Source: Lachnospiraceae bacterium (GTDB taxonomy: Bacteria > Bacillota > Clostridia > Lachnospirales > Lachnospiraceae). From it: 61,050 nucleotides of DNA. Each line of letters begins with the position of its first letter. Positions within the stretch are counted from its first letter, which is position 1. Position numbers and translations under genes: made by a program. Positions 1,023 to 44,187 of the stretch are shown here, in pieces. Under the pieces are notes generated by a model. That model did not search any database and was not told where the DNA came from. It saw only the letters and a list, made by a program, of their open reading frames with translations. Location: the NCBI GenBank assembly GCA_017440575.1, contig JAFSGY010000102.1:1-61050 (forward strand). The letters are read 5' to 3'.

Positions 1023-1049
1023 GTAATTATGAAGGTACTGAATAATTAC
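1023..1049. promoter_or_regulatory. Palindromic element, copy A (shared 23-bp motif)
   Basis: An 8-bp perfect inverted repeat GTAATTAT/ATAATTAC encloses the core GAAGGTACTGA. The same core with complementary changes in the arms recurs at 41134-41156, and a diverged copy lies at 11537-11559. It sits 39 bases before the GTG start of the diguanylate cyclase. It could be an operator or a leader hairpin; a copy facing the other way near the AraC gene favours DNA binding. Confidence 0.6.
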
Positions 1050-1088: not shown

Positions 1089-4000
1089 GTGGAAATACAA
1101 AGGAAGATATGCAAAAAGGTTGCAGGGACATTGTTACTTGTAGCCAGTCTGTTGTCTGTTATGACGGGGGGCGTTATGCAGGTGCAGGCAGAGGAGATAT
1201 CGGGAAGTCTGGAGATTTTGTCCAATATAGAAGAAACTATGATGCAGGAGTATTTGGATGCGTTTCAGAAAAAATATCCGGAAGTTGAGATTGATTATCA
1301 GTTCTATGCAGATTATGAAAATGAAGTAAAGGTACGCATGGAAAGCGGAGATTACGGAGATGTTCTGTTTGTCCCGGGTAGTGTACATACTTCTGACTGT
1401 GCAAAATATTTTGTACCGTTAGGTACTTATGAGGAGCTTTCTGAGAAATATAATTATCTGGAGTCGAGTAAATATATTGAGCAGACAGTATATGGAATTC
1501 CGTCCTCAGCCTATTTGTCAGGGATTGTCTACAATAAAGATGTCTTTTATCAGGCAGGAATATCGGAAACACCAAAGTCAATTGATGAATTTTTGGTGGC
1601 ATTACAGCATATAAAAGAGAGAACATCTGCGATTCCGTTTTATACGAACTATGTGGCTGACTGGACTTTACAGTTTTGGGAAAGATTTCCATATATTGAA
1701 ATGACAGGGAATCCGGATTATAAAGAAAATCTTTTTGTAAATATCAGCAATCCGTTTTCCAAAGGTTCAACACATTATCAGGTATATAAGATGCTGTATG
1801 ATATCGTAGAGGGAGAGCTTAGTGAGCGTAATCCGCTGATGTCAGATTGGGAACAGTCTAAGATATGGCTGAATGAAGGTAAGATTGCTTGTATGGCGAT
1901 TGGTTCCTGGGCGGTATCTCAGTGTAAGGAAGCTGGAGAATATGCGGATGCGGTTGCATTTATGCCGTTTCCAAATGAGATAGATGGAAGGCAATACATG
2001 TCCATTTTTACGGACTATTGCTATGCGATTAATAAAAATAGCGAAAATAAAGAAGCAGCCAAGGCGTATATTGATTTTATGCTGGATGAATCAGGCTATG
2101 CCTTAAATCGGGAAACTCTTTCCATTGTGAAAACAGATCCATACCCGAATTCCTATGGCAATATGGAGAATGTCATTGTACTCGTCAACAATCCTGCAAC
2201 AGGTGAAAATTATCAGAAAAAATTAAAGCTTGCATCTAAGTTGAATCTGGAGGATTTTTCGGAGACTAGAAGAATTATCGAGGCAGCACTTGGGATTCGC
2301 CAGGAAAGCTTTGATGATATTATGACGGATTGGAACAAGAGATGGGAGTCTTCCCGTACACCGGATATGGCAGTCATTGAAAATGAAGTGAACGCTTTAA
2401 AGGAAAGTGTCATTGACAGCAATTATGAGGCGAATTTTTCACAAACGGAGCAACAGTTTATAGAGGAGCAGCAAAGGATTCTAGTTGGTTATGTAAGAAA
2501 TATGGCACCTTTTCAGCAGGAGAAGGAGCAGGGATTCTATGGTGTAGCCGAGGAGCTTTGTCGTATTGTACAAGAGAATTCGGGATTGCAGATGGAATAT
2601 CTTGCTTATGACAATACGCAACAGGTGGTAGAAGCGCTGAAAAACGGCGAAATAGAGATGATAGCCTGTATCGACGAAAATACGGACTATCGGGCAGACA
2701 TTTTGTTATCGAAGGAATATCTGAGTTATTTAAATGTTGTGATACAACATGAAGCGGTTAATCTGGATAATCTGAAAACTGCTAAAACAGCAGGTGTTGA
2801 GGGGGAAACGATAGGTTATCTGGATGCAGTTGCAGTACAGGAGACACAGTACAATACCTATGCAGAAGCGCTAAAAGCAGTAGATACTCATGCACAGGAT
2901 TATACGGTTATGAATTATTATAGTGCAGACTATTATATTCAGGAGCAGAACTGTAAAAATGTATCGATGCTTCCACTGTCGGAGATGAGTGGAATATGCT
3001 TTGCCTTTCCTAAGGATGTAGATACCAGACTGGTATCTATTTGCAATAAGTGTATCTATGGAACTTCTGATGGTAATATTCAGGTGATTTTGCGTGAGTA
3101 TATGGAACAGCCGGAGCAGACAGTTACACTAAAGAGATTTGTAGAGGATAATCCATTCACAGCGATTATGATTGTATGTGCGGTCTTTTTATTGATTGTA
3201 GTTGCGATTATGCTTGTTATGTTGGAAAAGAATAGAAGTGCGAAAAAGCATGCAGTGGATGTAAAGCGTTATGAGATTTTGGCTTCGATTGTAGATGAAT
3301 ATATCTTTGAATATGATTATGGCAAAAGAATTTTTTCACTTGATAAAAAGCTACAGAAGAAGTTTGATATGGGAAAAGAGATACATTTTGATACATATCA
3401 GAGAGATAACGCTAATTTTGAAGCTGCGTATGTACAGTATGCGGCAGCAAGAGACAGGCAGGAGGATGTAACGCAGCCTTTCCAGATGACAGATAGGACA
3501 GGAGATACGAAGTGGTATAAAATGATATCTCATGTGGTATATGACAGTAGTCAAAAGCCGCAACATGTGATTGGAAAATTGATAAACGTACAGAAGGAAA
3601 TCGTAGAAATACAGCAGATGGAGAATAAAGCGCATAGAGATCCGCTAACCGGTATTTATAATCGTGAGGGTTTCCAAAGCAGGCTGGATGCTATTTATAG
3701 AAATCCGGAGCAGATGCTCCCGATTACGATTGCTGTTATGGATTTTGATGGCTTTAAGGGAGTGAATGATACCCTTGGACATGCCGGTGGTGACGAGGCA
3801 TTGAGGCTGCTTGCAGGCACTCTTTCTGAAATCTTTGACAGGAATGCCATTGTGGCGCGTTATGGTGGTGACGAATTCATGCTGTGTATCTATGAGACAG
3901 AAGAGAAGAAGGTGCAGGAGCAGCTTGCCAAGCTTGTTCGATCAATGGATAGAGTATTTGCCTATCAGGCACTAACACATAAGATTTCGATTAGTGTAGG

Positions 4001-4127
4001 AGCAGTACTGACAAGGGAGCCAGTAAGTTTTGAAATACTGTATAAGGAAGCAGATAAGGTACTGTATTATACCAAGAATCATGGCAAGAATGGCTATCAT
4101 CTGATACAGCATTTAGAAGAAATATAA
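1089..4127 (+). CDS. Sugar-sensing membrane diguanylate cyclase (SBP1-SBP3-TM-PAS-GGDEF)
   Basis: The 1012-residue protein starts at GTG, 7 bases after AGAAGGA, and has a signal peptide ending near VQAEE. Domains in order: family 1 solute-binding protein (about 35-430), family 3 solute-binding protein (about 465-680), one membrane helix (about 690-715), a PAS-like domain (about 728-840) and a GGDEF domain (845-1005) with an intact RYGGDEF motif near residue 924. The RxxD inhibitory site normally found five residues before GGDEF is not visible. The first domain is clearly related to the mannan binding protein at 11900 (shared DWE, GSWAVxQ, YTNYxAxWT). It should make c-di-GMP in response to an extracellular sugar. 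The ligand is inference; the architecture is seen directly. Confidence 0.9.
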   Translation: MEIQRKICKKVAGTLLLVASLLSVMTGGVMQVQAEEISGSLEILSNIEETMMQEYLDAFQKKYPEVEIDYQFYADYENEVKVRMESGDYGDVLFVPGSVHTSDCAKYFVPLGTYEELSEKYNYLESSKYIEQTVYGIPSSAYLSGIVYNKDVFYQAGISETPKSIDEFLVALQHIKERTSAIPFYTNYVADWTLQFWERFPYIEMTGNPDYKENLFVNISNPFSKGSTHYQVYKMLYDIVEGELSERNPLMSDWEQSKIWLNEGKIACMAIGSWAVSQCKEAGEYADAVAFMPFPNEIDGRQYMSIFTDYCYAINKNSENKEAAKAYIDFMLDESGYALNRETLSIVKTDPYPNSYGNMENVIVLVNNPATGENYQKKLKLASKLNLEDFSETRRIIEAALGIRQESFDDIMTDWNKRWESSRTPDMAVIENEVNALKESVIDSNYEANFSQTEQQFIEEQQRILVGYVRNMAPFQQEKEQGFYGVAEELCRIVQENSGLQMEYLAYDNTQQVVEALKNGEIEMIACIDENTDYRADILLSKEYLSYLNVVIQHEAVNLDNLKTAKTAGVEGETIGYLDAVAVQETQYNTYAEALKAVDTHAQDYTVMNYYSADYYIQEQNCKNVSMLPLSEMSGICFAFPKDVDTRLVSICNKCIYGTSDGNIQVILREYMEQPEQTVTLKRFVEDNPFTAIMIVCAVFLLIVVAIMLVMLEKNRSAKKHAVDVKRYEILASIVDEYIFEYDYGKRIFSLDKKLQKKFDMGKEIHFDTYQRDNANFEAAYVQYAAARDRQEDVTQPFQMTDRTGDTKWYKMISHVVYDSSQKPQHVIGKLINVQKEIVEIQQMENKAHRDPLTGIYNREGFQSRLDAIYRNPEQMLPITIAVMDFDGFKGVNDTLGHAGGDEALRLLAGTLSEIFDRNAIVARYGGDEFMLCIYETEEKKVQEQLAKLVRSMDRVFAYQALTHKISISVGAVLTREPVSFEILYKEADKVLYYTKNHGKNGYHLIQHLEEI

Positions 4128-4130
4128 ACA

Positions 4131-4173
4131 TAAGCAAAAAATGCAAGTCGAAAAGACTTGCATTTTTTGCTTA
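4131..4173. terminator. Bidirectional terminator between cyclase and HD-GYP genes
   Basis: A perfect 19-bp stem (4131-4149 with 4155-4173) with a 5-base loop carries A and T runs on its two sides. It can stop transcription from both convergent genes and includes the HD-GYP stop codon. Confidence 0.9.
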
Positions 4174-5313
4174 TATAATGGTTTCAATGGAAACGCTTTT
4201 TTGATTTCGAAGATTCATAATGCCCTGATAATATTCATTCTGAAGGTCAATAATCTCATCTGTGGTAGTGCGGATAACCGGTCTGGAAAAGCTATCGCGG
4301 TTGATAAAGATAACGTCACCTTCCATACCATTTGTAAGTGTTACACGATGGTTCAAATAGGAATTTGCCACATTTTCCAAAAAGGTAAGGATATATTTCA
4401 TCTCATATTTCTGAATACCTTCATCCTCAAAGGATTTGATAACGGAAAATGGACACATTGCTTTACGGTAGATGCGCTCGCTTGTCATGGCATCAAAGAT
4501 ATCGGCAATGGTAACAATTTTCGCAAATTTATCAATTTCATCTCCACTAAGTCCGTATGGATATCCGCTACCATCGCATTTCTCATGATGCATCAGTGCA
4601 GCATTTTTAATCGGGAGTGGAATATTTTCAAAACGGTTAAGCAGATGGAATCCCTCGATGGTATGAGTCTTGATAATAGAGAACTCATCGGGAGTCAGCT
4701 TACCTGGTTTTCTTAATACACCGGATGGTAAGAGGAACTTGCCTACATCATGGAAAAGACCACAGGCAGTTGCCATTCTCTGGTCTTCTTCTGAAAAATG
4801 AAGCCATTTTGATAATATATTGGAGATTAATGCAACGTCAATACAGTGTGCATAGACTGAGTCATCGCGGTTTTTCATGTTTAATAACATATCAAAAACA
4901 CTGATGTCAGAGTTCTCTTGCTTCATCATCTGCATGGTTTCTTCTACTAATTCATTTGCAAAAAGCGGCTGATTGTGATATAAGGATTTCATCAGATTAT
5001 CACGAAAGTGTTCGGCACATCGTGCAAAATCCTGACTGAAATGCTGGAATTGTGAACTGCTGCGAATTCGCTCTTTGCTAGTAGGTATGGAAGGTGCTTC
5101 CTGAAGCTGCTGTAAATCTGTAATCGGTTTTGATAGTTCATCTACGATTTCATCATTAATGTAAATATAGTATATGGAATAGCCTTCCAAACGTGATATG
5201 ATATTTTCAGTTAAAACGATGCCCTTAGGAATGATTAGTGTAAGGTCGTAGGTAAGGACATCCTCTGCTGTTACCATACCGGGAACTAATTCGGAGACTG
5301 GTATCTGTTTCAT
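4171..5313 (-). CDS. HD-GYP domain c-di-GMP phosphodiesterase
   Basis: The protein has 380 residues. An N-terminal DUF3391-like segment (MKQIPVSELVPGMVTAEDV) precedes an HD-GYP domain (about 145-300). It carries the HD pair at residues 188-189 (LFHDVGK) and the diagnostic HHEKCDGSGYP stretch at 242-252, so the metal-binding and GYP residues are intact. It should hydrolyse c-di-GMP. No membrane segment is seen, so it is probably cytosolic. It lies tail to tail with the diguanylate cyclase and diverges from the NUDIX gene, forming a local make/break pair for the second messenger. Pairing by function is inference from adjacency. Confidence 0.92.
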   Translation of the reverse strand: MKQIPVSELVPGMVTAEDVLTYDLTLIIPKGIVLTENIISRLEGYSIYYIYINDEIVDELSKPITDLQQLQEAPSIPTSKERIRSSSQFQHFSQDFARCAEHFRDNLMKSLYHNQPLFANELVEETMQMMKQENSDISVFDMLLNMKNRDDSVYAHCIDVALISNILSKWLHFSEEDQRMATACGLFHDVGKFLLPSGVLRKPGKLTPDEFSIIKTHTIEGFHLLNRFENIPLPIKNAALMHHEKCDGSGYPYGLSGDEIDKFAKIVTIADIFDAMTSERIYRKAMCPFSVIKSFEDEGIQKYEMKYILTFLENVANSYLNHRVTLTNGMEGDVIFINRDSFSRPVIRTTTDEIIDLQNEYYQGIMNLRNQKSVSIETII

Positions 5314-5343
5314 GAGTCTTCACCTTTCTAAATAGCAGTATCT

Positions 5344-5370
5344 GTAACGATTCATTGCTTGAATCGTTAC
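5344..5370. promoter_or_regulatory. 11-bp perfect dyad between divergent HD-GYP and NUDIX genes
   Basis: GTAACGATTCA at 5344-5354 is repeated inverted as TGAATCGTTAC at 5360-5370. It lies 31 bases before the HD-GYP start and 64 bases before the NUDIX start. No T run follows, so an operator is more likely than a terminator. The binding protein is unknown. Confidence 0.55.
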
Positions 5371-5434
5371 CAATATCTTCTATTTAAGTTTACGTGTTAA
5401 TAGTACAAAAGTCAATAAAAAAGGAGCTAATTGA

Positions 5435-6046
5435 ATGAAAAAATACACCAATATAAAAAAGATTTCTGATAACAAGTTTTTGAATCTCTTTCACATGAAT
5501 GCACTTACGGATGCAGGAAGGCCTTTTGATTACTTTTTTGTATCACGAAGAAAAGAAGATAGGCTTAAACTGTATACAAAGGATATACAGGCGGAAGGAG
5601 TTGTGATCTATCCTGTTTGTAAGGAGGAACCGGATAAGATTGTGATGATTCGTCAGTATCGTTATCCTTTAGATGATTATCTGTATGAGCTTCCTGCTGG
5701 GCTGATAGATGCAGGGGAGACACCTTCAGAGGCGGCAGTTCGTGAGATGAAGGAAGAGACGGGAATGGATTTTGAGGTGTATGAGGCTGGAAATGCTGCA
5801 TATCGCAGACCATTTTTTATGGGAGCAGGCTTCACGGATGAGAGTTGTAATGCTGTTTTTGGCTTTGCAAGTGGTAAGATTAGTAGAGATGAGATGGAGG
5901 ACACAGAGTCTATTCAGGTTCTAATTGTGGATAAGCAGGAGGCAAAGCGTATTCTGGCAGAAGAAAAGGTATCATTACGTGCAGCATATTTGCTGATGCA
6001 TTTTATTCATGCAGATCGTAATGAGCCATTTGCTTTTTTGGAGTAA
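5435..6046 (+). CDS. NUDIX hydrolase (ADP-ribose pyrophosphatase-like)
   Basis: The 203-residue protein has a complete Nudix box between residues 89 and 111: GLIDAGE, then REMKEETG. The preceding LYELPAG stretch is typical of ADP-ribose/ADP-sugar pyrophosphatases. It would hydrolyse a nucleoside diphosphate linked to another group using Mg2+. The start is set by AAAGGAG before ATG. Substrate preference is inferred only from general likeness. It diverges from the HD-GYP gene. Confidence 0.88.
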   Translation: MKKYTNIKKISDNKFLNLFHMNALTDAGRPFDYFFVSRRKEDRLKLYTKDIQAEGVVIYPVCKEEPDKIVMIRQYRYPLDDYLYELPAGLIDAGETPSEAAVREMKEETGMDFEVYEAGNAAYRRPFFMGAGFTDESCNAVFGFASGKISRDEMEDTESIQVLIVDKQEAKRILAEEKVSLRAAYLLMHFIHADRNEPFAFLE

Positions 6047-6091
6047 GCAGAAGTTACATAAAATGTAAAAGAAATATATTTAAAATGTACA

Positions 6092-6133
6092 AAAAATGCA
6101 CACTGTATTGACAAATATGGCGTGCATTTTTTA
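6092..6133. terminator. Inverted repeat: NUDIX terminator overlapping the lacI promoter
   Basis: AAAAAATGCAC at 6092-6102 and GTGCATTTTTT at 6123-6133 form an 11-bp perfect stem ending in a T run, 46 bases after the NUDIX stop. The -35 box of the next promoter lies in the loop and the -10 begins at the end of the right arm. It could also act as an operator. Confidence 0.6.
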
Positions 6134-6138
6134 TTATA
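6109..6138 (+). promoter_or_regulatory. Predicted sigma-A promoter for lacI-GH36
   Basis: TTGACA (6109-6114) is followed by an 18-base spacer and TATTAT (6133-6138). It lies inside the inverted repeat at 6092-6133, so a protein bound there would block it. Confidence 0.65.
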
Positions 6139-6172
6139 TAGGAAATTGCAGTTACGTAGTGGTAGTTAGACA

Positions 6173-6195
6173 AGAATGTGCTTTGCACATTCTTT
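6173..6195 (+). promoter_or_regulatory. Leader hairpin upstream of LacI gene (possible attenuator)
   Basis: AAGAATGTGC and GCACATTCTT form a 10-bp perfect stem with a TTT loop, followed by TATTTCTC. It sits between the predicted promoter and the LacI start, so it would be in the 5' leader. It may be a premature terminator or an operator. Confidence 0.5.
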
Positions 6196-6249
6196 ATTTC
6201 TCGTATTATGCAATGGGTGTAAAAGGTGTAACGATAAGGAGGAAAATGC

Positions 6250-7266
6250 ATGAAAAAGGTGACAATACAGGATATTGCCAAGGAAATGGGATTGAGTCGT
6301 AATACCGTTGCTAAGGCATTGAGTAATGGTGCGGTTGCTCCGGAAACGAGAAACGCTGTCATACAAAAGGCGTGGCAGATGGGATATGCCAAGCTTGCCG
6401 ATGATGTACAGCAGGAGATGGAGACACAGCATAAAAAGGAACAAAGTGGAACGATACTGGTTTTGTTTAACCGTTCGGAATCGGTATTTTGGAACAGAAC
6501 GATGGTAGGAATCAGCAATGCAGTATCTGAGGAAGGCTTTCGTATGCAGCTGCATATTGTAGATGAGCAGGACTTGGATGGAGATGGTGTGCTTGCGCAG
6601 CTTGCGGATGATGTAAAGGGAATCATTTTCTTGTGCGTATTTCCGATTCGGTTTGTGCAGGGTGTGGCAAGAGCGGGATTACCGATGACCTTTTTCAATA
6701 CACCGGTTAATGCACAGGAGTATATTGCGCTAGGAGATGTATATAATCTGGAAGGCTTCTATTCCATGAATCGCCTTACCAGCTATTGTATTGAGAAAAA
6801 GGGCTGTCGTAGCTTTGCCTTTATTGGTTATGCAGAAGGTTCGCGAGTGGTACAGGCAAGATATCTTGGCTTTTTAGGAGCGTGTAATCGCTACAGCATC
6901 CAGCCGGATGAAAATATGTTATATACTTGTCCATCCAATAAGTCTTATTTTAACTACAGTATGGTAGAAGAAGTAATACAGCAGATGCACAGTATTCCGG
7001 ATGCTATTGTGTGCGAGAATGATGACATTGCAAAGTATACTGCTCTTGCATTGCTGCAAAGAGATCCGATGCTTGCAAAGAATACGGTAATTACGGGCTT
7101 TGATAATACCATTGAGGAGGATTTTTTTAAGAAAGATATTCTCACGGTAGATGTCAGAGTAGAGGAATTAGGAAGAAGATTGGTGAAGTCTGTTATAGAC
7201 CGTGTTAGGGATCCACGTCTTGGCATTGTGTTTGCAACGTTAACAACATATCCAAAATTGATATAG
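6250..7266 (+). CDS. LacI family transcriptional regulator
   Basis: The protein has 338 residues. The N-terminal helix-turn-helix (VTIQDIAKEMGLSRNTVAKAL) is typical of LacI proteins and is followed by a periplasmic-binding-protein-like effector domain. The start follows AGGAGG. The GH36 gene starts 15 bases after its stop, so the two form an operon. It probably represses the GH36 operon, and perhaps the wider mannan locus, until a galactoside or mannoside is present. The effector is inferred from context. The effector domain is more diverged from typical LacI sequences than that of the second LacI. Confidence 0.88.
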   Translation: MKKVTIQDIAKEMGLSRNTVAKALSNGAVAPETRNAVIQKAWQMGYAKLADDVQQEMETQHKKEQSGTILVLFNRSESVFWNRTMVGISNAVSEEGFRMQLHIVDEQDLDGDGVLAQLADDVKGIIFLCVFPIRFVQGVARAGLPMTFFNTPVNAQEYIALGDVYNLEGFYSMNRLTSYCIEKKGCRSFAFIGYAEGSRVVQARYLGFLGACNRYSIQPDENMLYTCPSNKSYFNYSMVEEVIQQMHSIPDAIVCENDDIAKYTALALLQRDPMLAKNTVITGFDNTIEEDFFKKDILTVDVRVEELGRRLVKSVIDRVRDPRLGIVFATLTTYPKLI

Positions 7267-7281
7267 AATGAGGTAGAAAAA

Positions 7282-9471
7282 ATGAATATTACATATTTTG
7301 AAAAAGAGAGAATTTTTAAGCTGGATACACCGAAAACAAGCTATTTGATGGGAGTTGTAGATGAGGAGAATTTCCTTGGCCACATTTATTATGGAAAAAG
7401 ATTGGAGGATTATAACATTGGATATTTGATGAGAACTGAAGAGCCTCCATTTGTTCCAAGCAAGAATAATAGAGAGAGATGTTCGTTTTATGATGCGTTT
7501 CCATTTGAATATCCGACAGGAGGATTGGGAGATTTCAGAGAGAGCTGTCTGTCGATAAGAACAGAAGGAGGACACTGCGGCTGTTCTTTTTCCTATGTAT
7601 CTCATAAAATTTTAGAGGGAAAGCCGGAGCTTATTGGGCTTCCTGCAACTTTTGGAGATAAGGACAGCTGTATGACACTGGAGATTACTGGTGAGGATAA
7701 GCATGTTGGAATGGTAGTAAAGCTGTACTATACGGTATTTTCTGACACAGATGTCATTACTAGAAGCGTAAAGGTAGAAAATGCAGGTGAGAAACCATTT
7801 TATCTTACCAAAGTATTTTCCGCATGTCTGGATATGGACAATCAGGACTTTGATATGATTTCGTTGCATGGAAGCTGGGCAAGAGAGCGTCATATCCAGA
7901 GAAAGCCCTTAGGCTATGGAATCCAGAATGTCAGCTCTTTTCGAGGGGAATCCAGTCATCAGGATCATCCGTTCCTTGCGCTGGTAACCAAGAATACCAC
8001 ACAGGAGACAGGCGAAGTATATGCCATGAACTTTGTGTATTCCGGTAATTTCCGTGCGCAGGCTGAGGTTTCGCAGTTTGATAGTGTGCGTATGTCTATG
8101 GGAATCCATCCGGAGAACTTCTGCTGGAAACTGATGCCGGGTGAGGTATTTCAGGCGCCGGAGGCGGTTCTTGTATATTCCGCAGAAGGTCTTGATGGTA
8201 TGACAACTGCTTTCCATCATTTATATAAAAAGCACCTGATTCGTGGAGAATATAAGGATAAAAAGCGTCCGATTTTAATCAATAACTGGGAAGCAACTTA
8301 TTTTGACTTTACAACCGAGAAGCTGTTAAGCATTGCTAAAGAGGCTTCCTCTCTTGGTATCGAGATGTTGGTTATGGATGATGGCTGGTTTGGCAAGAGA
8401 AGTAGCGATAATTGCGCTCTTGGCGACTGGGTAGTGAATGAAGAGAAGCTTCCGGGAGGCTTAAAATATCTCGTGGATGAGGTAAATAAGCTTGGTATGA
8501 AGTTTGGTATCTGGTTTGAGCCGGAGATGATTTCACCGGATTCAGACCTGTACAGAGCACATCCTGACTGGGCAATTGCTATTCCGGGACGTGTGGCGAC
8601 CGAGTCAAGACAGCAGTATGTTTTAGATCTGTCACGTAAGGAAGTGGTAGACTATGTCTATGAAAGTGTGGCAAAGATTTTAAGAAGCGCTAATATCGAA
8701 TACGTAAAGTGGGATATGAATAGACAGCTGTCAGATATTGGAAGCTATGAGCTTGCAGCAGACAGACAGGGCGAATTGTATCACAGATATGTGCTGGCTG
8801 TCTATGAATTGCAGGACAGACTGACCAAGGAATTTCCACATCTGTTATTGGAGAACTGTTCCGGTGGTGGAGCACGTTTTGATCCCGGAATGCTGTATTA
8901 CAGCCCGCAGATTTGGTGTTCGGATGATACGGATGCGATAGAAAGACTGGAGATTCAGGAGGGAACGGCTCTGATTTATCCGCTTTCTACGATGGGAGCG
9001 CATGTGTCTGACTGTCCGAATCATACCGTTGGAAGGGTAACACCATTTGAAACAAGAGGAATCGTGGCACTTGCGGGAACCTTTGGATATGAGCTTGATG
9101 TAACAAAGATTCCACAGGAAGACCGTGAAATGATTCCAAAACAGGTTGCTATGTATCATAAATATAATGATTTGGTACGAAGAGGAGATTATTATCGAAT
9201 TGCTTCTTATTCACAGAATCATAAGTATGATTGCTGGGAAGTTGTCAACGAGGATAAGAAGGAAGTACTGGTTACCTTTGTACAGGTATTAAATAGAGCT
9301 AATTTTAAGTCAAGAAGAATTCGTTTAAAGGGACTCGATCCTAAGAAGTGCTATCGCATCGAAGGCGAAGAGAGAATCTATAGTGGAGAAGCTTTGATGT
9401 ATGCTGGATTGCAGATTCCAAATCCATGGGGAGATTTCAAGGCTGTGCTGATTCATCTGACAGAAGTATAG
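7282..9471 (+). CDS. GH36 alpha-galactosidase
   Basis: The 729-residue protein has no signal peptide, so it is cytosolic. It matches full-length bacterial GH36 (RafA/AgaA type): N-terminal beta-sandwich, TIM barrel, C-terminal beta domain. The nucleophile motif VKWDMNR is near residue 478 and the acid/base region WCSDDTDAIERL near residue 548. The LENCSGGGARFDPGML stretch is also typical. It releases alpha-1,6-linked galactose, here most likely from imported galactomanno-oligosaccharides before phosphorolysis, as in the R. intestinalis mannan locus. It is co-transcribed with the preceding LacI gene; raffinose-type substrates remain possible. Confidence 0.93.
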   Translation: MNITYFEKERIFKLDTPKTSYLMGVVDEENFLGHIYYGKRLEDYNIGYLMRTEEPPFVPSKNNRERCSFYDAFPFEYPTGGLGDFRESCLSIRTEGGHCGCSFSYVSHKILEGKPELIGLPATFGDKDSCMTLEITGEDKHVGMVVKLYYTVFSDTDVITRSVKVENAGEKPFYLTKVFSACLDMDNQDFDMISLHGSWARERHIQRKPLGYGIQNVSSFRGESSHQDHPFLALVTKNTTQETGEVYAMNFVYSGNFRAQAEVSQFDSVRMSMGIHPENFCWKLMPGEVFQAPEAVLVYSAEGLDGMTTAFHHLYKKHLIRGEYKDKKRPILINNWEATYFDFTTEKLLSIAKEASSLGIEMLVMDDGWFGKRSSDNCALGDWVVNEEKLPGGLKYLVDEVNKLGMKFGIWFEPEMISPDSDLYRAHPDWAIAIPGRVATESRQQYVLDLSRKEVVDYVYESVAKILRSANIEYVKWDMNRQLSDIGSYELAADRQGELYHRYVLAVYELQDRLTKEFPHLLLENCSGGGARFDPGMLYYSPQIWCSDDTDAIERLEIQEGTALIYPLSTMGAHVSDCPNHTVGRVTPFETRGIVALAGTFGYELDVTKIPQEDREMIPKQVAMYHKYNDLVRRGDYYRIASYSQNHKYDCWEVVNEDKKEVLVTFVQVLNRANFKSRRIRLKGLDPKKCYRIEGEERIYSGEALMYAGLQIPNPWGDFKAVLIHLTEV

Positions 9472-9492
9472 GAAATATATATATAAATCCCT

Positions 9493-9521
9493 TTGACAAA
9501 TTAACTAAATTAATTTATATT
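9493..9521 (+). promoter_or_regulatory. Strong sigma-A promoter for second LacI gene
   Basis: TTGACA (9493-9498), a 17-base spacer and TATATT (9516-9521). The spacer holds the AT-rich near-palindrome TTAACTAAATTAA, a plausible self-regulation site. It starts 21 bases after the GH36 stop. Confidence 0.75.
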
Positions 9522-9578
9522 GTAATTAGCTTAAAAAGATTAAAGAGAAGATTAAATATATATACGATGGAGGGAAAA

Positions 9579-10598
9579 ATGGTTAAATCAGTAAAGCTTG
9601 CTGACATTGCAGCAGAATTGAATGTGAGCATTGTAACGGTTTCCAAAGCGCTTTCCGGTCAGAAAGGTGTCAGTGAAGAACTTAGAAAGAAGATTAAAGA
9701 TCTTGCCGATGAGATGGGATATGTACCGGTACATGCTGCCCAGAAGAACAGAAGCAAGTCATATACGATTGGAATTATTAGTTTGGAGAGCTATTTTTCT
9801 AAATTCGCATCCTTTTACTGGAAAATGTATCAGGAGGTTGCAACTAAGGCGGTGAAGAAGAGCTGCTTTACCATGCTGGAGGTTATTAGTGCTGCGTCTG
9901 AGGATGCCTTGGAGCCGCCTAAGCTTTTTGAAGAGGAAAGAGTAGACGGTATCGTGATTATTGGCAAGCCGAAGAAGGAATATCTCAAGATGCTGTATCA
10001 GTATAAGAGGATTCCGATGGTATTTCTTGATTTTTATGATGATGAGCTGATATGTGATTCTGTAGTTTCGGCAGGTTACCTTGGAAGCTATCAGATGACA
10101 CATTATCTGATTGAAAAAGGGCATAGAAAGATTGCATATGTTGGAACTTTGAAATATACAGAGAGTATTACAGACCGATATTTTGGCTATTGCAAGGCTC
10201 TCATGGAAAGTAATCTTGAGGTTAGAAAAGATTGGGTGATTCCAGACCGTGATATGAACAATGGTATTATTGGTATGGATTATACATTCCAGCTACCTCA
10301 CGAGATGCCAACTGCATTTGTGTGCAATAATGATATTACGGCTTATGCGTTGATTCAGACCTTGGAGAAGGCAGGATATCGTGTTCCGGAAGATATATCA
10401 GTAGTAGGCTATGATAATTATTTGTATCCTGAATATGGTGATTCCAGAATTACTACCTATGCAGTAGATATGGGTGAGATGGCTAGAATTGCAATGCATA
10501 GTTTAGTGAAAAAGATTGAAAACATTTTATACAACGAAAGTATACATACCGTTCCCGGACGTATGATCGTCCGTGATACGGTAAAAGAGATTAATTAA
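9579..10598 (+). CDS. LacI family regulator (probable mannan-locus repressor)
   Basis: The protein has 339 residues from ATG 9579, chosen because GGAGGG at 9569-9574 lies just before it; the earlier ATG at 9567 overlaps that site. The helix-turn-helix VKLADIAAELNVSIVTVSKAL is at the N-terminus, followed by a typical sugar-binding effector domain with VPEDISVVGYDN near the end. It has its own promoter between the GH36 operon and the divergent AraC gene. It probably controls the manno-oligosaccharide import operon; target and effector are inference. Confidence 0.9.
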   Translation: MVKSVKLADIAAELNVSIVTVSKALSGQKGVSEELRKKIKDLADEMGYVPVHAAQKNRSKSYTIGIISLESYFSKFASFYWKMYQEVATKAVKKSCFTMLEVISAASEDALEPPKLFEEERVDGIVIIGKPKKEYLKMLYQYKRIPMVFLDFYDDELICDSVVSAGYLGSYQMTHYLIEKGHRKIAYVGTLKYTESITDRYFGYCKALMESNLEVRKDWVIPDRDMNNGIIGMDYTFQLPHEMPTAFVCNNDITAYALIQTLEKAGYRVPEDISVVGYDNYLYPEYGDSRITTYAVDMGEMARIAMHSLVKKIENILYNESIHTVPGRMIVRDTVKEIN

Positions 10599-11511
10599 GT
10601 ATATCAGAATCAAGAATGGGTGTTTCCCTGCGAAATGCAAGCGGGGTAACACCCGTTTTTTCTTTGAATAAACGGATAAAATGATTGGTGTTTTCAATCC
10701 CCACAAGCTGTCCGATGTCGCAGACCTTCTCATCTGTTGTGAGGAGGAGTTCTTTGGCACGTTGGATGCGAACCTGATTTAAGTATTGTAATGGTGTGGT
10801 CTGATAGTGTGCAGAGAATTCTCGACATAGTCTGTATTTATTGATACGGTATTTACGCGAGGCTTCTTCTAACGAAAAAGGCTCCTCACAGGCAGTATCA
10901 AAGGTCTTCTTCATATCGAGTAAATAAGCCGGAGTGTGAAAGCTCTGGCTGTTTTCTTTTTGACGTATCAGATAGAGCTCCGTAAAAAGCTGTGTCAGTG
11001 TTTTTGCGCGTAGTATGGCGTGTAGTTTATCGTCTTTAATCTCTTTGAATAATTGGTTCCATATGGTATTCAAATCACTATAAGCATCCGGTTTAAAAAC
11101 ACAATTGTGTTCAGGACAACACTGCTCATAATAGAAGGCTGTTACCGGTGGTGTGATAAAGCAGATGGTATATTCCCATCTCCCTCTAGGGCAGCAGATG
11201 CGGTGCAACTGGCTACAATCAAGAAAAACAAAGGTTCCTTTATCTAAGGTGTAAAGCTGTTCCTGATACTCGAGCTGTCCACATCCTCTGGTGGTGAGTA
11301 ACATACAATATGTCTGTACATGGCTAAGGGTGTAAGAGAAAGGAGCAGAAACGGATATATGCTGATAACACAATAAATCCGGCAGTGTAGGAGCAAGGCT
11401 GCAAACCTCTGAACAGGGAATGCTAAAATACTCGGAAAAGGAAAAGTGATTTCCGGTTTCAAAGGTTTGTAGATTTGAGTAAAAATCTGAGGTAAGTGAC
11501 TGGATATTCAT
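10591..11511 (-). CDS. AraC family transcriptional regulator
   Basis: The 306-residue protein starts at the ATG read leftward from 11511. A longer frame begins at 11526, but the AAAGGAG ribosome site lies inside its first codons, so the shorter start is preferred. The N-terminal half is a cupin-like sugar-sensing domain. The C-terminal about 100 residues hold the two helix-turn-helix motifs (YRINKYRLCREFSAHY and VCDIGQLVGIENTNHFIRLF). It is convergent and overlaps the preceding LacI gene by 8 bases. It diverges from the mannan import operon and is likely an activator of it, consistent with no good -35 box there. Activation is inference. Confidence 0.9.
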   Translation of the reverse strand: MNIQSLTSDFYSNLQTFETGNHFSFSEYFSIPCSEVCSLAPTLPDLLCYQHISVSAPFSYTLSHVQTYCMLLTTRGCGQLEYQEQLYTLDKGTFVFLDCSQLHRICCPRGRWEYTICFITPPVTAFYYEQCCPEHNCVFKPDAYSDLNTIWNQLFKEIKDDKLHAILRAKTLTQLFTELYLIRQKENSQSFHTPAYLLDMKKTFDTACEEPFSLEEASRKYRINKYRLCREFSAHYQTTPLQYLNQVRIQRAKELLLTTDEKVCDIGQLVGIENTNHFIRLFKEKTGVTPLAFRRETPILDSDILN

Positions 11512-11536
11512 AAAGGCTCCTTTCAAATTAAAAATG

Positions 11537-11559
11537 AACTATGAAGGTATGGAATTGTT
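11537..11559. promoter_or_regulatory. Palindromic element, copy C (diverged)
   Basis: It matches copy B (41134-41156) at 20 of 23 positions, sharing AACTATGAAGGTA and GTT at the end. It lies 26 bases upstream of the AraC start in the opposite orientation to that gene. A DNA operator is therefore more likely than an RNA leader. Confidence 0.5.
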
Positions 11560-11658
11560 ATGCTTATTATAACGCATTGAAAGAAAAACGCAAGAAACAG
11601 CGATTAAATGAAAGAAAAGAAGAATTTGAATGAATTTGTAAAGGAAATTTAAAATAAA

Positions 11659-11857
11659 TTAACAAACAAGAACTTAAAATAAGCTAAAAAATGAAAAGTA
11701 GCTTTACTATATTGGGTAAAATGACCAAAAAAACATTAAAACAATTGTAAAAAAGGAAGAAGTGATGTAAAAACGCAAGAATAGGTGATTAATATCAATT
11801 ATAAGTGATGACTAAATGAACTTTTTGGTTTAAAGTAAATTTAAGTTAACAAACAAG
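11659..11857. repeat. 12-bp direct repeat pair in mannan operon upstream region
   Basis: TTAACAAACAAG occurs at 11659-11670 and again at 11846-11857, 187 bases apart. The second copy is bounded by GTTAAC sequences. Candidate binding sites for LacI or AraC, possibly forming a loop. Direct repeats are visible; the role is inference. Confidence 0.5.
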
Positions 11858-11899
11858 TTAACGAGAAGTAAAACGTAGTTAAAACGGGAGGTTAAAAAC

Positions 11900-13354
11900 A
11901 TGGAATTTAAGAAAGTAACAGCACTCGGTATGGCAGCTGTCATGACAATGTCTTTAGCAGCATGCGGTAGTAGCGAAACAGCAACAACAAACACAGATAC
12001 TAAGACAGATGCAGCAGCAACAACAACAGATGCAGCAGCAACAACAGACACAGCAGCAACAACAGATGCAGCAGCTGATACAGCAGAGGCAGCCGGAGTT
12101 CCTACCTACGCAGAGGTTACATTGGGTGAGGATTATACAGACTTAACAACAACCATTAAGTTCATGCATCACAAGACAGACCGTGAGCAGGACGGAACAA
12201 TTGCTAACTTAATCGCAGAATTCAATAAGGTATATCCAAACATTACAGTTGAAACAGAAGGAATTACAGATTATGCAGAAACAGCTCTTCTTAGGCTTCC
12301 AACAGAAGACTGGGGCGACATCATGTTCATCCCTACAGTAGATGCAGCAGATCTTCCTACATACTTCCTTCCATATGGAACAGTAGAAGAAATGGATCAG
12401 TATGTAAACTTCGCTGATAACTGGAAGAACGAAGGAAACTGCTACGGAATCGGATACATGGGAAATGCTATGGGACTTCTTTACAACAAGGCAGTATTTG
12501 AAGCAGCAGGTGTTACAACATTACCTAAGACTCCGGATGAGCTTATGACAGCTTTGCAGGCAATCAAGGATAACACAGATGCGATTCCTCTTTATACAAA
12601 CTATGCAGCAGGTTGGACCATGGGTGGTCAGTGGGATGGTTTCCTTGGAGCAATCACAACAGGTGATGAGACATGGTTAAATCAGAAGTTCGTTCATACA
12701 GCAGAGCCTTTTGCTGATAATGGCGACGGAACAGGTGCTTATGCACTTTACAAGATTCTCTATGATGCAGTTGCAAATGACTTAATCGAAGATGACTATA
12801 CAACTACAGACTGGGAAGGCTGTAAGGGTATGATTAACAGAGGCGAAATCGGAACTATGGTTCTTGGTTCATGGGCAGTAGCTCAGATGAAGGCTGCTGG
12901 TGAGAATCCGGATGATATCGGATACATGCCATTCCCTATTACAGTAAACGGTAAGCAGTATGCAACAGCAGGTCCTGACTATGGATATGGTATCAATGTA
13001 AACTCTTCTGAGGAGAATCAGACAGCAGCTATGGTATTCGTTAAGTGGATGGTTGAAGAATCAGGCTGGTGTGATTTCGAAGGTGGATATCCTATTTCTA
13101 AGACAGCTCCTACATCCTTTGTATTTGATGGTGTAGAGGTAGTTAGCAACGTAACATCTCTGGAAGGTGAAGAAGACCTTATGAATGAGATGAATGCAGA
13201 ATCTGAGCTTAACTTCAACAACGGTGGAGACAGCAGAGTTCAGAAGATTGTAGAAGCAGCAGATGCTGGTATTCCTTATGAAGAATTAGTTGCTGAGTGG
13301 ACACAGGCTTGGAACGATGCTCAGGAAACTTTAGGAATTGAAGTACTTTACTAG
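11900..13354 (+). CDS. Manno-oligosaccharide ABC transporter binding lipoprotein
   Basis: A 484-residue family 1 solute-binding protein. A lipoprotein signal peptide with lipobox LAAC (Cys about residue 22) is followed by a Thr/Ala/Asp low-complexity linker of TDAAATT units to about residue 70, then the binding domain. The start follows GGGAGG. Codon use is strongly biased to GCA/ACA, suggesting high expression. It heads an operon of mannan enzymes and sits where R. intestinalis encodes its mannan-oligosaccharide binding protein, so beta-manno-oligosaccharides are the likely ligand. It is a paralogue of the sensor domain at 1089-4127. No ATPase gene is in the locus; a shared MsmK-like ATPase elsewhere would power it. 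Confidence 0.9.
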   Translation: MEFKKVTALGMAAVMTMSLAACGSSETATTNTDTKTDAAATTTDAAATTDTAATTDAAADTAEAAGVPTYAEVTLGEDYTDLTTTIKFMHHKTDREQDGTIANLIAEFNKVYPNITVETEGITDYAETALLRLPTEDWGDIMFIPTVDAADLPTYFLPYGTVEEMDQYVNFADNWKNEGNCYGIGYMGNAMGLLYNKAVFEAAGVTTLPKTPDELMTALQAIKDNTDAIPLYTNYAAGWTMGGQWDGFLGAITTGDETWLNQKFVHTAEPFADNGDGTGAYALYKILYDAVANDLIEDDYTTTDWEGCKGMINRGEIGTMVLGSWAVAQMKAAGENPDDIGYMPFPITVNGKQYATAGPDYGYGINVNSSEENQTAAMVFVKWMVEESGWCDFEGGYPISKTAPTSFVFDGVEVVSNVTSLEGEEDLMNEMNAESELNFNNGGDSRVQKIVEAADAGIPYEELVAEWTQAWNDAQETLGIEVLY

Positions 13355-13439: not shown

Positions 13440-13506
13440 GTATTTGGCTAATGATATGACGTTATGAAAAGATTTATTGTTTGAGAGAAAAGGAGGAGGT
13501 TGCGCT

Positions 13507-14517
13507 ATGGCATCATCCCAGATGGCAGCAAAGCCAAAAAAACCGTTTAATCTTCGCAAGTGGATAAGAAGTAGGGAAGGACAGCAGGCACTGGTTATTG
13601 TCGCTTTCTCTATTATTCCTTTAGCATTGCTATTGATATTTACTTATTATCCTTTTGCAGAAATGTTTAAATTCAGCTTCTTTAAAATGAAGTACGTAGG
13701 AGAAAGAGAGTTTGTTGGATTAAAGAACTATATTGATGTATTTACAAGAGATGATCTTTTTAGCTCCTTAAAGTTATCCCTATATTACATTGGCGGTGCG
13801 ATTGTGCAGCTTGCACTTGCTTTGTATCTGGCTACCGTACTCTGCTTTGGCGTTAAGGGTGGCAATTTATTTAAGGGATGTATGTTCTTCCCATACTTAA
13901 TTAACGGTATTGCAATTGGTTTTATTTTTAAATTTTTCTACACAAGAGGATTCGTATTTGATACGGTTCTTCAATGGTTTGGATTTGAATTGGAAAATCT
14001 TCCGTACTGGCTGAAAGACAGAAGCATCAACAATATTTCCCTGGTAGGAACTAGTGTATGGAAATATTTTGGACAGAACATGGTACTCTTCCTTGGTGCG
14101 ATGATGTCTGTTGATTCAGAATTATATGAAGCAGCAATGCTGGACGGTGCAAATAAATGGCAGCAGTTTAAATATATTATGCTTCCAAGTATTAAGACAA
14201 TTGTTACATTGAACCTGATTACCTCAATTACCGGTTCCTTAAGTGCATTCGAGCCGCCATACGTTGTTATGTCCGGTGGTGCAAACGGTACAGCAACTTA
14301 CTTTGTAAAGATGCATGAGGTTGCTCATACAAGTCAGAAGGTTGGTCTTGCATCTGCCATGGCAATCGTATTATTGATGATTATCTTTGTGGCAACTATT
14401 TTACAGAAGGTATTCATGAACTATGTATTCAAGAGTTCAGAGGATGAAGATGTGAATGCAGCAAAGAAAAGAGAGAAGAAGCTTGCCAAAGCAAGAGCAA
14501 AGGAGGCAGGAAGGTAA
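13507..14517 (+). CDS. Mannan-type ABC transporter permease 1 (MalF-like)
   Basis: The protein has 336 residues from ATG 13507, chosen because AAGGAGGAGG lies directly before it; an upstream TTG at 13477 would put that site inside the gene. About six membrane helices. The EAA loop (YEAAMLDGANKWQQFKYIMLP) is the contact for the ATPase. It ends in a charged Lys/Glu-rich tail. It overlaps the second permease by one base (TAATG), indicating translational coupling. It is part of a sugar importer with the preceding binding protein and the following permease. Confidence 0.92.
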   Translation: MASSQMAAKPKKPFNLRKWIRSREGQQALVIVAFSIIPLALLLIFTYYPFAEMFKFSFFKMKYVGEREFVGLKNYIDVFTRDDLFSSLKLSLYYIGGAIVQLALALYLATVLCFGVKGGNLFKGCMFFPYLINGIAIGFIFKFFYTRGFVFDTVLQWFGFELENLPYWLKDRSINNISLVGTSVWKYFGQNMVLFLGAMMSVDSELYEAAMLDGANKWQQFKYIMLPSIKTIVTLNLITSITGSLSAFEPPYVVMSGGANGTATYFVKMHEVAHTSQKVGLASAMAIVLLMIIFVATILQKVFMNYVFKSSEDEDVNAAKKREKKLAKARAKEAGR

Positions 14518-15359
14518 TGACAATCTTTCAGAAAATAAAGCATTATGGATGGATTTTTATCCAGTATTTTTCACTCATATTCTTTTCACTGGTAGCTTTA
14601 TTGCCGGTAGTATCCTGTCTTATAACAGCATTCAAGACAAAGGAAGAGTATGAAAGCACCAGTGTAATGACACTTCCGGAAAGTTGGTTGAACTTTGATA
14701 ACTTTATTCAGGTATGGAATGATGCCAACATGGGAAGAGCCTTTATAAATTCAGCAATCGTTTTGGTTTTTGTAGTAGCAGGTTCTGTTATGGTAGGTTC
14801 CATGATTGCTTATGTATTGAATCGATTCACATTCCCTGGAAATGGTCTGATTCGTAACCTGTTCCTTTTTGCAACACTCCTTCCGGGTATTGCGATGCAG
14901 GTAGCAACCTATCAGTTAATGTATCAGATTGGCTTTATCAATCACTTATATGGATATATCATTCTTTCCATGGGTACTGACGTTATTTCGATATACATAT
15001 TCATTCAGTTCTTTGAGAATATTCCGGTATCGTTGGATGAATCCGCATTTATGGATGGTGCTTCCTACTTTACGATTTTCTTTAAGATTCTGTTCCCACT
15101 CCTGAAACCAGCTATGGTTACGGTTATGATTCTTAAGGGTGTTGGAACATACAACGAATACTATAATGCCAGCCTGTATCTGACGGGAGATCAGAAGACG
15201 GTTTCCATGGCGTTATATACTTTTGTAGGACCACTTGGAAGCCAGTTTAACTTAATCTGTGCCGGTGTTATAATGAGTTTAATACCTGCATTGGTTGTAT
15301 TCCTTATTTTCCAGAAACAGATTTACAGTGGTATGACCGCAGGTGCTGTAAAAGGATAA
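14517..15359 (+). CDS. Mannan-type ABC transporter permease 2 (MalG-like)
   Basis: A 280-residue membrane protein with about six helices and a clear EAA loop (DESAFMDGASYFTIFFKILF). It pairs with the preceding permease to form the channel. Its ATG overlaps the previous stop. The C-terminus QKQIYSGMTAGAVKG is the standard ending for carbohydrate permeases of the MalG/AraQ type. The substrate is inferred from the operon. Confidence 0.92.
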   Translation: MTIFQKIKHYGWIFIQYFSLIFFSLVALLPVVSCLITAFKTKEEYESTSVMTLPESWLNFDNFIQVWNDANMGRAFINSAIVLVFVVAGSVMVGSMIAYVLNRFTFPGNGLIRNLFLFATLLPGIAMQVATYQLMYQIGFINHLYGYIILSMGTDVISIYIFIQFFENIPVSLDESAFMDGASYFTIFFKILFPLLKPAMVTVMILKGVGTYNEYYNASLYLTGDQKTVSMALYTFVGPLGSQFNLICAGVIMSLIPALVVFLIFQKQIYSGMTAGAVKG

Positions 15360-15382: not shown

Positions 15383-16567
15383 ATGAGGGAAGAGATTAAA
15401 AAGCATTTAGTAAATGACATTATTCCTTTTTGGAAGGGATTAAGAGATGATGAAAACGGCGGCTATTATGGCTGGATGGATTATGAGCACAGTGTTGATA
15501 AGAAGGCTGTAAAGGGCTGTATCTTAAATAGCCGTATTACCTGGTTTTTTGCCAATGCCTATACTCTTTTAAAGGATGAGTCCTTATTGGCAGAGGCAAA
15601 GCACGGATTTGAATTCTTGAAAAATCATTGTTGGGATAAAGAGAACGGTGGAGTGTTCTGGTCTGTAAAATATGACGGAACACCGGAAGAAACCTTAAAG
15701 CATACCTATAATCAGGCATTTTCTATCTACGCACTTTCTTCTTATTATGAAGCAAGTGGAGATAAAGAAGCATTAAAGATGGCTTATACCTTATATGAGT
15801 TGATTGAGTCAAAAATGCGAGATGAGCTTGGCTATAAGGAAGCCTTTGATGAAAGCTTCCATGAGATTGATAATGAGAAGCTTTCCGAAAATGGTGTCAT
15901 GGCAGCAAAGACCATGAATACCCTGCTTCATGTATTTGAGGCATATACAGAGCTTTACCGGGTGGATGGTAAGGCAGAGGTCAAGGAAAAGCTGATGTGG
16001 ATGATGGATTTAGTCGCAGAGAAGATTTATAATCCTGAGCTTCACAGACAGGAAGTATTCTTTGACGAGAAGTGGAACAGTATCATTGATTTACATTCCT
16101 ATGGACATGATATTGAGACAGCGTGGCTGGTAGACAGAAGTGTTGAGGTGATTGGTGAGAAGAAGTATGAAGATAAGATGACACCGATTACCCTTGACCT
16201 TGCAAGACAGGTGAAGAAGCTTGCCTTTAATGGAGAATCCTTAAGCAATGAATGCGAAAAGGGTGTGGATGATACCAACCGTGTATGGTGGGTTCAGGCA
16301 GAAACCGTAGTTGGATTCCTGAATGCAGCAGAGAAGAGCGGTAAGGAATCGGAAGAAGGAAAAGAGTATATAGAGTCAGCAAAGGCTGTTTGGGAGTTTA
16401 TCAAGGCTCATGTGATTGATAAGCGAGATGGTTATGAAACAGGAAGAGAATGGTACTGGCTAGTGGATGAAAAGGGTAAGCCTTACAGCGATAAGCCGAT
16501 TGTAGAACCATGGAAGTGTCCATATCATAATGGAAGAATGTGCTTTGAAGTAATCAAAAGACTCTAA
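15383..16567 (+). CDS. Mannobiose (cellobiose-type) 2-epimerase
   Basis: A 394-residue member of the N-acylglucosamine/cellobiose 2-epimerase family: an (alpha/alpha)6 barrel with the N-terminal ENGGYYGWMDYE stretch and conserved histidines (for example HSYGHDIETAWLV). It converts the reducing-end mannose of mannobiose to glucose, giving the mannosyl-glucose used by the GH130_1 enzyme that follows 20 bases later. No signal peptide. The start is preceded by AAAGGTGG. Specificity for mannobiose rests on the operon context. Confidence 0.9.
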   Translation: MREEIKKHLVNDIIPFWKGLRDDENGGYYGWMDYEHSVDKKAVKGCILNSRITWFFANAYTLLKDESLLAEAKHGFEFLKNHCWDKENGGVFWSVKYDGTPEETLKHTYNQAFSIYALSSYYEASGDKEALKMAYTLYELIESKMRDELGYKEAFDESFHEIDNEKLSENGVMAAKTMNTLLHVFEAYTELYRVDGKAEVKEKLMWMMDLVAEKIYNPELHRQEVFFDEKWNSIIDLHSYGHDIETAWLVDRSVEVIGEKKYEDKMTPITLDLARQVKKLAFNGESLSNECEKGVDDTNRVWWVQAETVVGFLNAAEKSGKESEEGKEYIESAKAVWEFIKAHVIDKRDGYETGREWYWLVDEKGKPYSDKPIVEPWKCPYHNGRMCFEVIKRL

Positions 16568-44100: not shown

Positions 44101-44187
44101 GTTCCTACGATTGAAAAAGTGGAGCAGATTATTGAAGATTCTAAGAATAAGACATCAGCAAAAAATGAAATGGAAGGAGGCAGATAG
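41179..44187 (+). CDS. Large ABC transporter binding protein with N-terminal carbohydrate-binding-like domains
   Basis: 1002 residues. A cleavable signal peptide (AQQVSA) is present; no lipobox is seen. Residues about 70-240 and 250-400 look like two beta-sandwich modules resembling carbohydrate-binding domains ([14 protein letters not shown] opens the second). A helical spacer follows, and residues about 590-960 are a family 1 solute-binding domain ([31 protein letters not shown]). The usual binding protein is less than half this size. Followed 2 bases after its stop by the first permease. Arabinan-derived ligands are inferred from flanking GH43 genes. Surface retention without a lipid anchor is unexplained. 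Confidence 0.85.

Follow-up and report, generated by a model that had tools for sequence, protein, structure and literature searches.

What does a diguanylate cyclase sense when its gene stands beside a mannan locus? The question is raised by a 61,050-nucleotide stretch from a Lachnospiraceae bacterium (contig JAFSGY010000102.1 of assembly GCA_017440575.1), hereafter the window, which makes up the whole of contig C62 in a genome that is 78% complete (2.83 Mb, 122 contigs) and whose closest named records, among the matches listed, are Lachnospiraceae metagenome-assembled genomes from goat gut (L201 and L211). The gene at 1089–4127 encodes a predicted cyclase for cyclic di-GMP (c-di-GMP) with two solute-binding domains ahead of its membrane helix. 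Our reading, which rests on sequence comparison and to which we assign a probability of roughly 0.6, is that extracellular beta-manno-oligosaccharides gate this protein, a transmembrane diguanylate cyclase. Sequence analysis shows the domain order, places the sensor in the family of mannan solute-binding proteins (SBPs) by similarity and tree, finds the GGDEF residues intact and reveals recurrent linkage to mannan genes. The parts of the gene are the following.

1089–4127, plus strand: diguanylate cyclase with tandem solute-binding ectodomain, 1012 residues (open reading frame, Pfam, whole-length relatives)
1089–1190, plus strand: signal-like sequence, residues 1–34 (read by eye; no lipobox seen)
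1191–2378, plus strand: sensor domain 1, residues 35–430, SBP_bac_1, manno-oligosaccharide-binding family (Pfam, similarity, PDB search, trees)
2400–3188, plus strand: sensor domain 2, residues 438–700, SBP_bac_3, membrane-proximal Venus flytrap (Pfam on the segment, PDB search)
3165–3221, plus strand: transmembrane helix, residues ~693–711 (hydropathy)
3234–3632, plus strand: PAS-like domain, residues 716–848 (below the Pfam cut-off in the window protein)
3630–4091, plus strand: GGDEF domain, motif at residue 926, without RxxD I-site (Pfam, residue reading)

The domain order given by the initial annotation (SBP family 1, SBP family 3, transmembrane helix, PAS, GGDEF) stands, with the PAS domain below the cut-off. 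The reading frame starts with GTG, downstream of an AGAAGGA-like ribosome site. A Pfam scan of the whole protein returns SBP_bac_1 at residues 49–336 (E value 3e-32) and GGDEF at residues 848–1001 (4e-34) and gives no match to SBP_bac_3; segment 436–700, scanned alone, clears the SBP_bac_3 cut-off (31.7 vs 26.4 bits), and all 18 aligned members match the same family. Hydropathy reveals a single strong transmembrane helix, and two successive flytraps precede it, as in tandem-flytrap receptors. The PAS call is weak in the window protein (PAS_3, 18.2 bits vs a cut-off of 25.6); across members the region matches PAS_3 in 7/17 and PAS_9 in 6/17 (E up to 1), and a PDB profile search with it returned zero matches. 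The active-site residues of the GGDEF domain are intact, including the GGDEF, metal Asp and NDTLGH motifs, and the GGDEF motif is invariant in 12/12 aligned rows. The RxxD product-inhibition site, an optional feature, is absent, and DRNA stands at that position.

Sensor domain 1 closely resembles the SBP encoded at 11900–13354 in the mannan locus of the window, with 36% identity over 374 residues (E 3e-73); in particular, the sequence blocks YTNYxAxWT, DWE and GSWAVxQ, which had been noticed as common to both proteins, are indeed shared. Among 92 open reading frames from 28 SBP_bac_1 loci of the same genome, only two score well against the sensor: the paralogous cyclase on contig C86 with 446 bits and the 11900 protein with 235 bits. 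The best remaining non-cyclase reaches 36.6 bits; given the distance between the last two values, the likeness goes beyond what SBPs share in general. A PDB search ranks BlMnBP1 and BlMnBP2 highest (241 bits); their structures were solved with mannotriose and mannopentaose, and a maltose-binding protein comes next (67 bits). BlMnBP1 and BlMnBP2 bind manno-oligosaccharides (PMC8106489; statements on this and the other cited papers refer to excerpts of their texts). RiMnBP binds the ligands M3–M5 with dissociation constants of 2.55–3.89 uM (PMC6385246), and FpMOBP likewise binds manno-oligosaccharides (PMC8262883); these two are likened to the sensor by locus, and the sequence comparison is with BlMnBP1/2. 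Judged by these matches, sensor domain 1 is a member of the manno-oligosaccharide SBP family.

To place the sensor within this family, relatives were gathered from 60 near genomes and 397 genomes of the bacterial family (each set including the window genome), and from a scan of named genomes (best 80 matches). The matches fall into two sharply distinct sets, cyclase fusions of ~1000 residues and free SBPs of ~430–500 residues, below which scores drop steeply. Of the other 35 genomes in the genus, 8 hold the fusion as judged by frame length; the 396 other family genomes, with at most four candidates scored per genome, hold at least three fused matches (G181, G451 and G113). The window genome itself has cyclases of this type on C62 and C86, with a fragment of another where contig C4 ends, and genome G011 has three. 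Two trees were computed, a first one of 121 rows, which omits the partial or weak L096, L208, L066, L216 and L218 and the second gene of L210, and a careful one of 58 rows, comprising 21/22 cyclases (L159 omitted), 32/91 free SBPs and 5/8 outgroups. The cyclase sensors form a single clade in both (support 100 with 121 rows, 100/100 with 58 rows), nested inside the free SBPs: a node with support 95/94 joins them to the main Lachnospiraceae SBPs and five others, and deeper nodes add a further Lachnospiraceae SBP (96/87) and spirochaete SBPs (89/81). A single clade of free SBPs is rejected by the AU test (p-AU 0.0145); the group tested was defined with the first tree already in view. Among free SBPs, L108, L109, L144, L158 and L110 come closest, and their placement next to the cyclase sensors is modestly supported (84/71, 85/39).

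The free SBPs mostly belong to mannan loci. Among 65 such loci with longer flanks, 59 carry matching permeases and 40 carry GH130 or epimerase genes; the corresponding figures for loci of outgroup hits are 1/16 and 0/16, where one of the 16, L211, is really a near relative. The single nested clade, together with the mannan genes at free-SBP loci, makes it very probable that the ancestor of the sensor was a mannan-transport SBP. According to the trees, there was probably a single capture of a mannan-type transporter SBP, whose source was an older sister lineage rather than the adjacent gene. The idea that a transporter SBP had been captured as a sensor is thus borne out (36% identity, 241 bits, nested clade), and a check set in advance, whether the sensor would cluster far from mannan binders, gave the opposite result, as it clusters inside their family. 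The neighbouring SBP gene at 11900 was tried as the donor and rejected, since the clade to which it belongs does not include the cyclase sensors.

The second line of evidence is gene linkage. That the cyclase lies beside a mannan locus, as initially annotated, is confirmed by the following genes; the locus further holds two LacI and one AraC regulator and two GDSL esterases.

7282–9471, plus strand: glycoside hydrolase family 36 (GH36) alpha-galactosidase
11900–13354, plus strand: mannan solute-binding protein (MnBP; Pfam, similarity)
13477–15359, plus strand: two ATP-binding cassette (ABC) permeases (Pfam on the first one only)
15383–16567, plus strand: 2-epimerase family protein, by its locus a probable mannobiose epimerase
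16588–17757, plus strand: GH130 phosphorylase
18927–19949, plus strand: second GH130 phosphorylase
21153–23459, plus strand: single-chain fusion of a GH1 glycosidase with phosphomannose isomerase

Among the matches listed, 24 distinct cyclase genes were collected, and mannan genes lie within 10 kb of five: the window, L086, L091 (where the 3′ part of the cyclase is on a separate contig), L144 and L153. The binomial chance of at least 5/24 is 7e-7 (20 kb per 2.8 Mb), or 2e-5 for 4/23 without the window and 5e-4 with a wider target, all of these being optimistic because the genes share ancestry. The L144 cyclase is the nearest to that of the window among the matches listed (66% identity in domain 1), and its locus (5661–12928) encodes an SBP, two successive permeases, a GH26 protein and the cyclase on one strand, in operon-like order. 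At L086, the cyclase is downstream of an MnBP, two permeases and a GH130 gene. Other GGDEF genes show no such proximity: in six genomes, four of which were picked for being linked, a hand count finds a mannan SBP within 10 kb for 0/148 of them. L144 offers the clearest case of linkage for experiment.

The residues of the sensor bear on its ligand. Taking as conserved the 80 alignment columns kept in at least 88% of 91 free SBPs, the window sensor retains 67/80, other full cyclase rows 51–67/80, and outgroups 27–39 of 78–80. Specifically, Y185, T186, N187, W192, W197, W254, E255, K258, W274, Q278, W415 and W419 are among those retained; the set comprises family residues, with cleft or sugar contact assigned to none of them. 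One further position can be tied to a known contact.

1224–1226, plus strand: Asn46 codon, whose residue the alignment pairs with the presumed Asn63 of BlMnBP1

BlMnBP1 Asn63 bonds the mannosyl at subsite 2 (PMC8106489). We placed it through the Asn/Gly difference between BlMnBP1 and BlMnBP2, and the placing is likely but not certain, since a second Asn/Gly difference lies five residues further. In this column Asn is found in 17/22 cyclases and 23/91 free SBPs, and His in 59/91 free SBPs.

Several observations weigh against mannan as the ligand or against the history proposed above. First, 19/24 cyclase genes are without mannan genes in the available flank, although linkage may be missed as 7/24 contigs are shorter than ~10.5 kb; other cyclases adjoin tsf, gltB, or a GH106-like gene with a sugar-ABC locus. 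Second, the draft genome RGIG2054 (L201), whose mannan genes are 86–99% identical to those of the window, shows no cyclase. Third, an (R/K)TD loop after strand 1, a feature defined in this alignment and not in the literature, is lost in 22/22 cyclases: its Thr is present in 91/91 free SBPs and 0/22 cyclases, and its Asp is present in 90/91 free SBPs and is replaced by a gap in 22/22 cyclases. Because the lost loop adjoins the residue read as Asn63, the pocket is altered. Fourth, retention of family residues and mannan linkage are uncorrelated, the unlinked L154, L147 and L149 retaining 67/80 and the linked L086 56/80. Finally, the group in the AU test was chosen after the first tree, and the root depends on long outgroup branches (69/43). 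On balance the sugar class is likely, whereas loop loss and the independence of retention from linkage leave the exact ligand uncertain. Further neighbours of unlinked cyclases include an EAL gene and ABC exporters, and the remaining ones (sulfatase, transglycosylase and others) show no pattern.

These observations feed the strongest alternative, in which the machine is the same and the sensor has drifted to a different oligosaccharide of plant or host origin, such as gluco-oligosaccharides, the paralogues being specialised by glycan. The loop loss in every cyclase, the presence of up to three such cyclases per genome (window genome and G011) and the surroundings of L155 are in its favour. We nevertheless hold it to be unlikely for the window protein, because that protein and its nearest relative, L144, are both at mannan loci, because W192, W197, W254, E255, W274 and Q278 are kept, and because the flanking free SBPs on the tree are mostly from mannan loci (with L195, L202 and L136 being without GH130 or epimerase). 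At L155 (6443–17444), a cyclase of the same family has as neighbours a GH106-like gene and a sugar ABC transporter of MalK type, and this cyclase may sense a different glycan.

That the protein is an ordinary orphan cyclase, with a relic sensor and a chance position near mannan genes, is improbable: the 19/24 relatives unlinked in the available flank and the non-conserved adjacency to the HD-GYP gene described below would fit it, but the 5/24 linkage exceeds chance (with the reservation about shared ancestry), the sensor stays conserved, and none of the 148 other GGDEF genes in the six genomes (four picked as linked) lies near a mannan SBP. Still more improbable, by a little, is flux sensing, in which the sensor would read an ABC transporter or another surface protein through an SBP fold serving as docking module, since, although SBPs dock on permeases and permeases are linked in L144, L086, L153 and the window, most members of the cyclase family are without a linked mannan transporter in the available flank and many family residues are conserved, the cleft-lining ones not being singled out.

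For a cyclase gated by beta-manno-oligosaccharides, the domain order suggests how a signal could be transmitted. The distal flytrap (SBP_bac_1, mannan-type) would be exposed outside and close on a beta-manno-oligosaccharide; closure would pass to the membrane-proximal flytrap (SBP_bac_3, similar to the second Venus flytrap, VFT2, of BvgS) and from there through the single transmembrane helix and the PAS-like linker, altering the activity of a GGDEF dimer in either direction, such that the c-di-GMP level would follow the presence of mannan fragments. We infer the single capture, the ligand, its affinity and the response, which may have either sign. The nearest PDB flytraps of domain 2 are those of BvgS (E 1e-44) and EvgS (E 1e-21), and 5gzs, a GGDEF-family protein that we take to be CdgH, also matches. 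In BvgS, locking the distal flytrap closed turns the kinase off (PMC4352136), and arginine compacts the ectodomain dimer of CdgH (PMC5431781). By analogy, closure of domain 1 on sugar should act via domain 2 and the transmembrane helix on GGDEF pairing.

The genome contains matches to 26 GGDEF proteins (one below the cut-off), 8 flagellin-like proteins and 8 PilZ proteins, and so holds a c-di-GMP network along with flagellin genes. The flagellin-like and PilZ matches make an output in motility or attachment possible, and a switch between swimming and attachment is speculative. The single GH26 in the genome is inside a 1444-residue open frame and may be a mannanase. A search of the genome for c-di-GMP-I riboswitches found none, with the search controls silent as well.

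The window protein combines features of several known systems. It resembles BlMnBP1 and BlMnBP2, SBPs of ABC importers, in sequence family, in tree position inside that family and in 67/80 family residues, and differs from them in being fused to a cyclase, in having lost the (R/K)TD loop, in showing no lipobox and in having a predicted ligand. Like CdgH of Vibrio cholerae, a tandem PBPb-GGDEF protein, it carries two flytraps, a transmembrane helix and GGDEF in a single chain; CdgH, however, has two amino-acid-binding PBPb domains (PMC5431781), whereas the distal domain here is of the oligosaccharide type SBP_bac_1. It shares the order flytrap, flytrap, transmembrane helix and PAS with the kinases BvgS and EvgS, and domain 2 finds its best PDB match in their membrane-proximal flytrap. 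The output of the window protein, however, is GGDEF and not histidine kinase, and its distal domain comes from a different SBP family. RmcA, an arginine-sensing phosphodiesterase with SBP_bac_3, likewise fuses an SBP to a c-di-GMP enzyme, but its sensor is of family 3 and reads an amino acid. The Roseburia intestinalis mannan locus MULL has in common with the window GH36, MnBP, two permeases, epimerase, two GH130 and esterases; unlike for the window locus, the term 'cyclase' has 0 occurrences in the main text of the MULL paper (PMC6385246).

Tandem-flytrap cyclases are thus already known, and those with a ligand found in the literature sense amino acids. Excerpts of a 2022 review name SBP_bac_3 as the only member of the periplasmic-binding clan studied in c-di-GMP networks (PMC8846402), and among the hits listed by searches of PubMed Central, covering papers under CC0, CC BY and CC BY-SA, no paper on a cyclase with a manno-oligosaccharide-type SBP appeared. 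Homology, phylogeny and gene linkage together point to a likely ligand class, which makes a sugar-gated cyclase directly testable with manno-oligosaccharides. If it is one, gut fibre degraders would couple a specific dietary polysaccharide to the lifestyle second messenger c-di-GMP.

A broader history can be put forward more tentatively. A single capture by a chassis of SBP_bac_3, PAS and GGDEF may have given rise to oligosaccharide-sensing cyclases that multiplied and now read diverse glycans, with the window protein as the mannan-reading member. L230 (1387–3273) encodes a 629-residue relative with domain 2, PAS and GGDEF and without domain 1. The chassis thus exists without the mannan-type domain, by descent or by loss, and L230 is a possible image of the ancestor. 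Capture followed by diversification would mean a direct input of dietary polysaccharide into c-di-GMP for the fibre degraders among gut Lachnospiraceae.

The cyclase gene has an HD-GYP gene as its downstream neighbour.

4171–5313, minus strand: predicted HD-GYP phosphodiesterase (Pfam, motifs), a neighbour and not a conserved partner of the cyclase
4130–4174, minus strand: terminator-like hairpin of 20 pairs separating the cyclase and HD-GYP genes (hairpin search)

The initial annotation had described a c-di-GMP phosphodiesterase convergent with the cyclase and paired with it. The first part is correct, as judged from strands and motifs (HDVGK, HHEKCDGSGYP and DIFDA); the pairing is positional only, the two genes being separated by a 43-bp gap that holds the hairpin. 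An HD-GYP orthologue (at least 65%) is present in 13 near genomes, and 11 loci were inspected over ~1.5 kb on each side. A cyclase of the window type adjoins it in 0/11, and with this count and the hairpin the HD-GYP protein was rejected as a conserved cyclase partner. The two enzymes may draw on one c-di-GMP pool, and a dedicated pair is not indicated.

On the other side of the HD-GYP orthologue, a Nudix gene is found in 8/11 loci, and the HD-GYP and Nudix genes (window 4171–6046) form a divergent pair kept independently of the cyclase. HD-GYP and a mannan SBP are on one contig in 9/13 genomes, independently of the cyclase, which suggests that HD-GYP is an old neighbour of the mannan region. 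The window cyclase sits between HD-GYP and a GNAT gene, which directly adjoins HD-GYP in L243 and L245. Of the other convergent neighbours in the 11 loci, that of L241 was outside the Pfam scan, and 7 of the 8 scanned are an ammonium transporter-PII protein. The eighth, L237 (2–1374), has a different GGDEF gene, 7TMR-DISM-like (below the cut-off), beyond a 95-residue open reading frame.

A near relative that surfaced as a weak hit, L211 (9267–19993; HD-GYP 91%), has the gene order of the window, with the cyclase beside HD-GYP as fragments corresponding to residues 123–163 and ~781–1012 only. Its AraC gene and most mannan transporter genes are fragmentary or missing as well; as real loss and assembly fault are indistinguishable here, L211 was left out as evidence.

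Upstream of the cyclase gene, a repeat search found one further element.

1023–1049, plus strand: inverted repeat GTAATTAT-N11-ATAATTAC

No second copy of this repeat was found in the window with up to 3 mismatches allowed, and an Rfam scan of the window returned zero matches. Elsewhere in the window, the gene at 41179–44187 encodes a 1002-residue protein that gives no match to GGDEF and in which SBP_bac_1 stands behind a long N-terminal part; its neighbours, read by eye, are ABC permeases and GH43-like genes.

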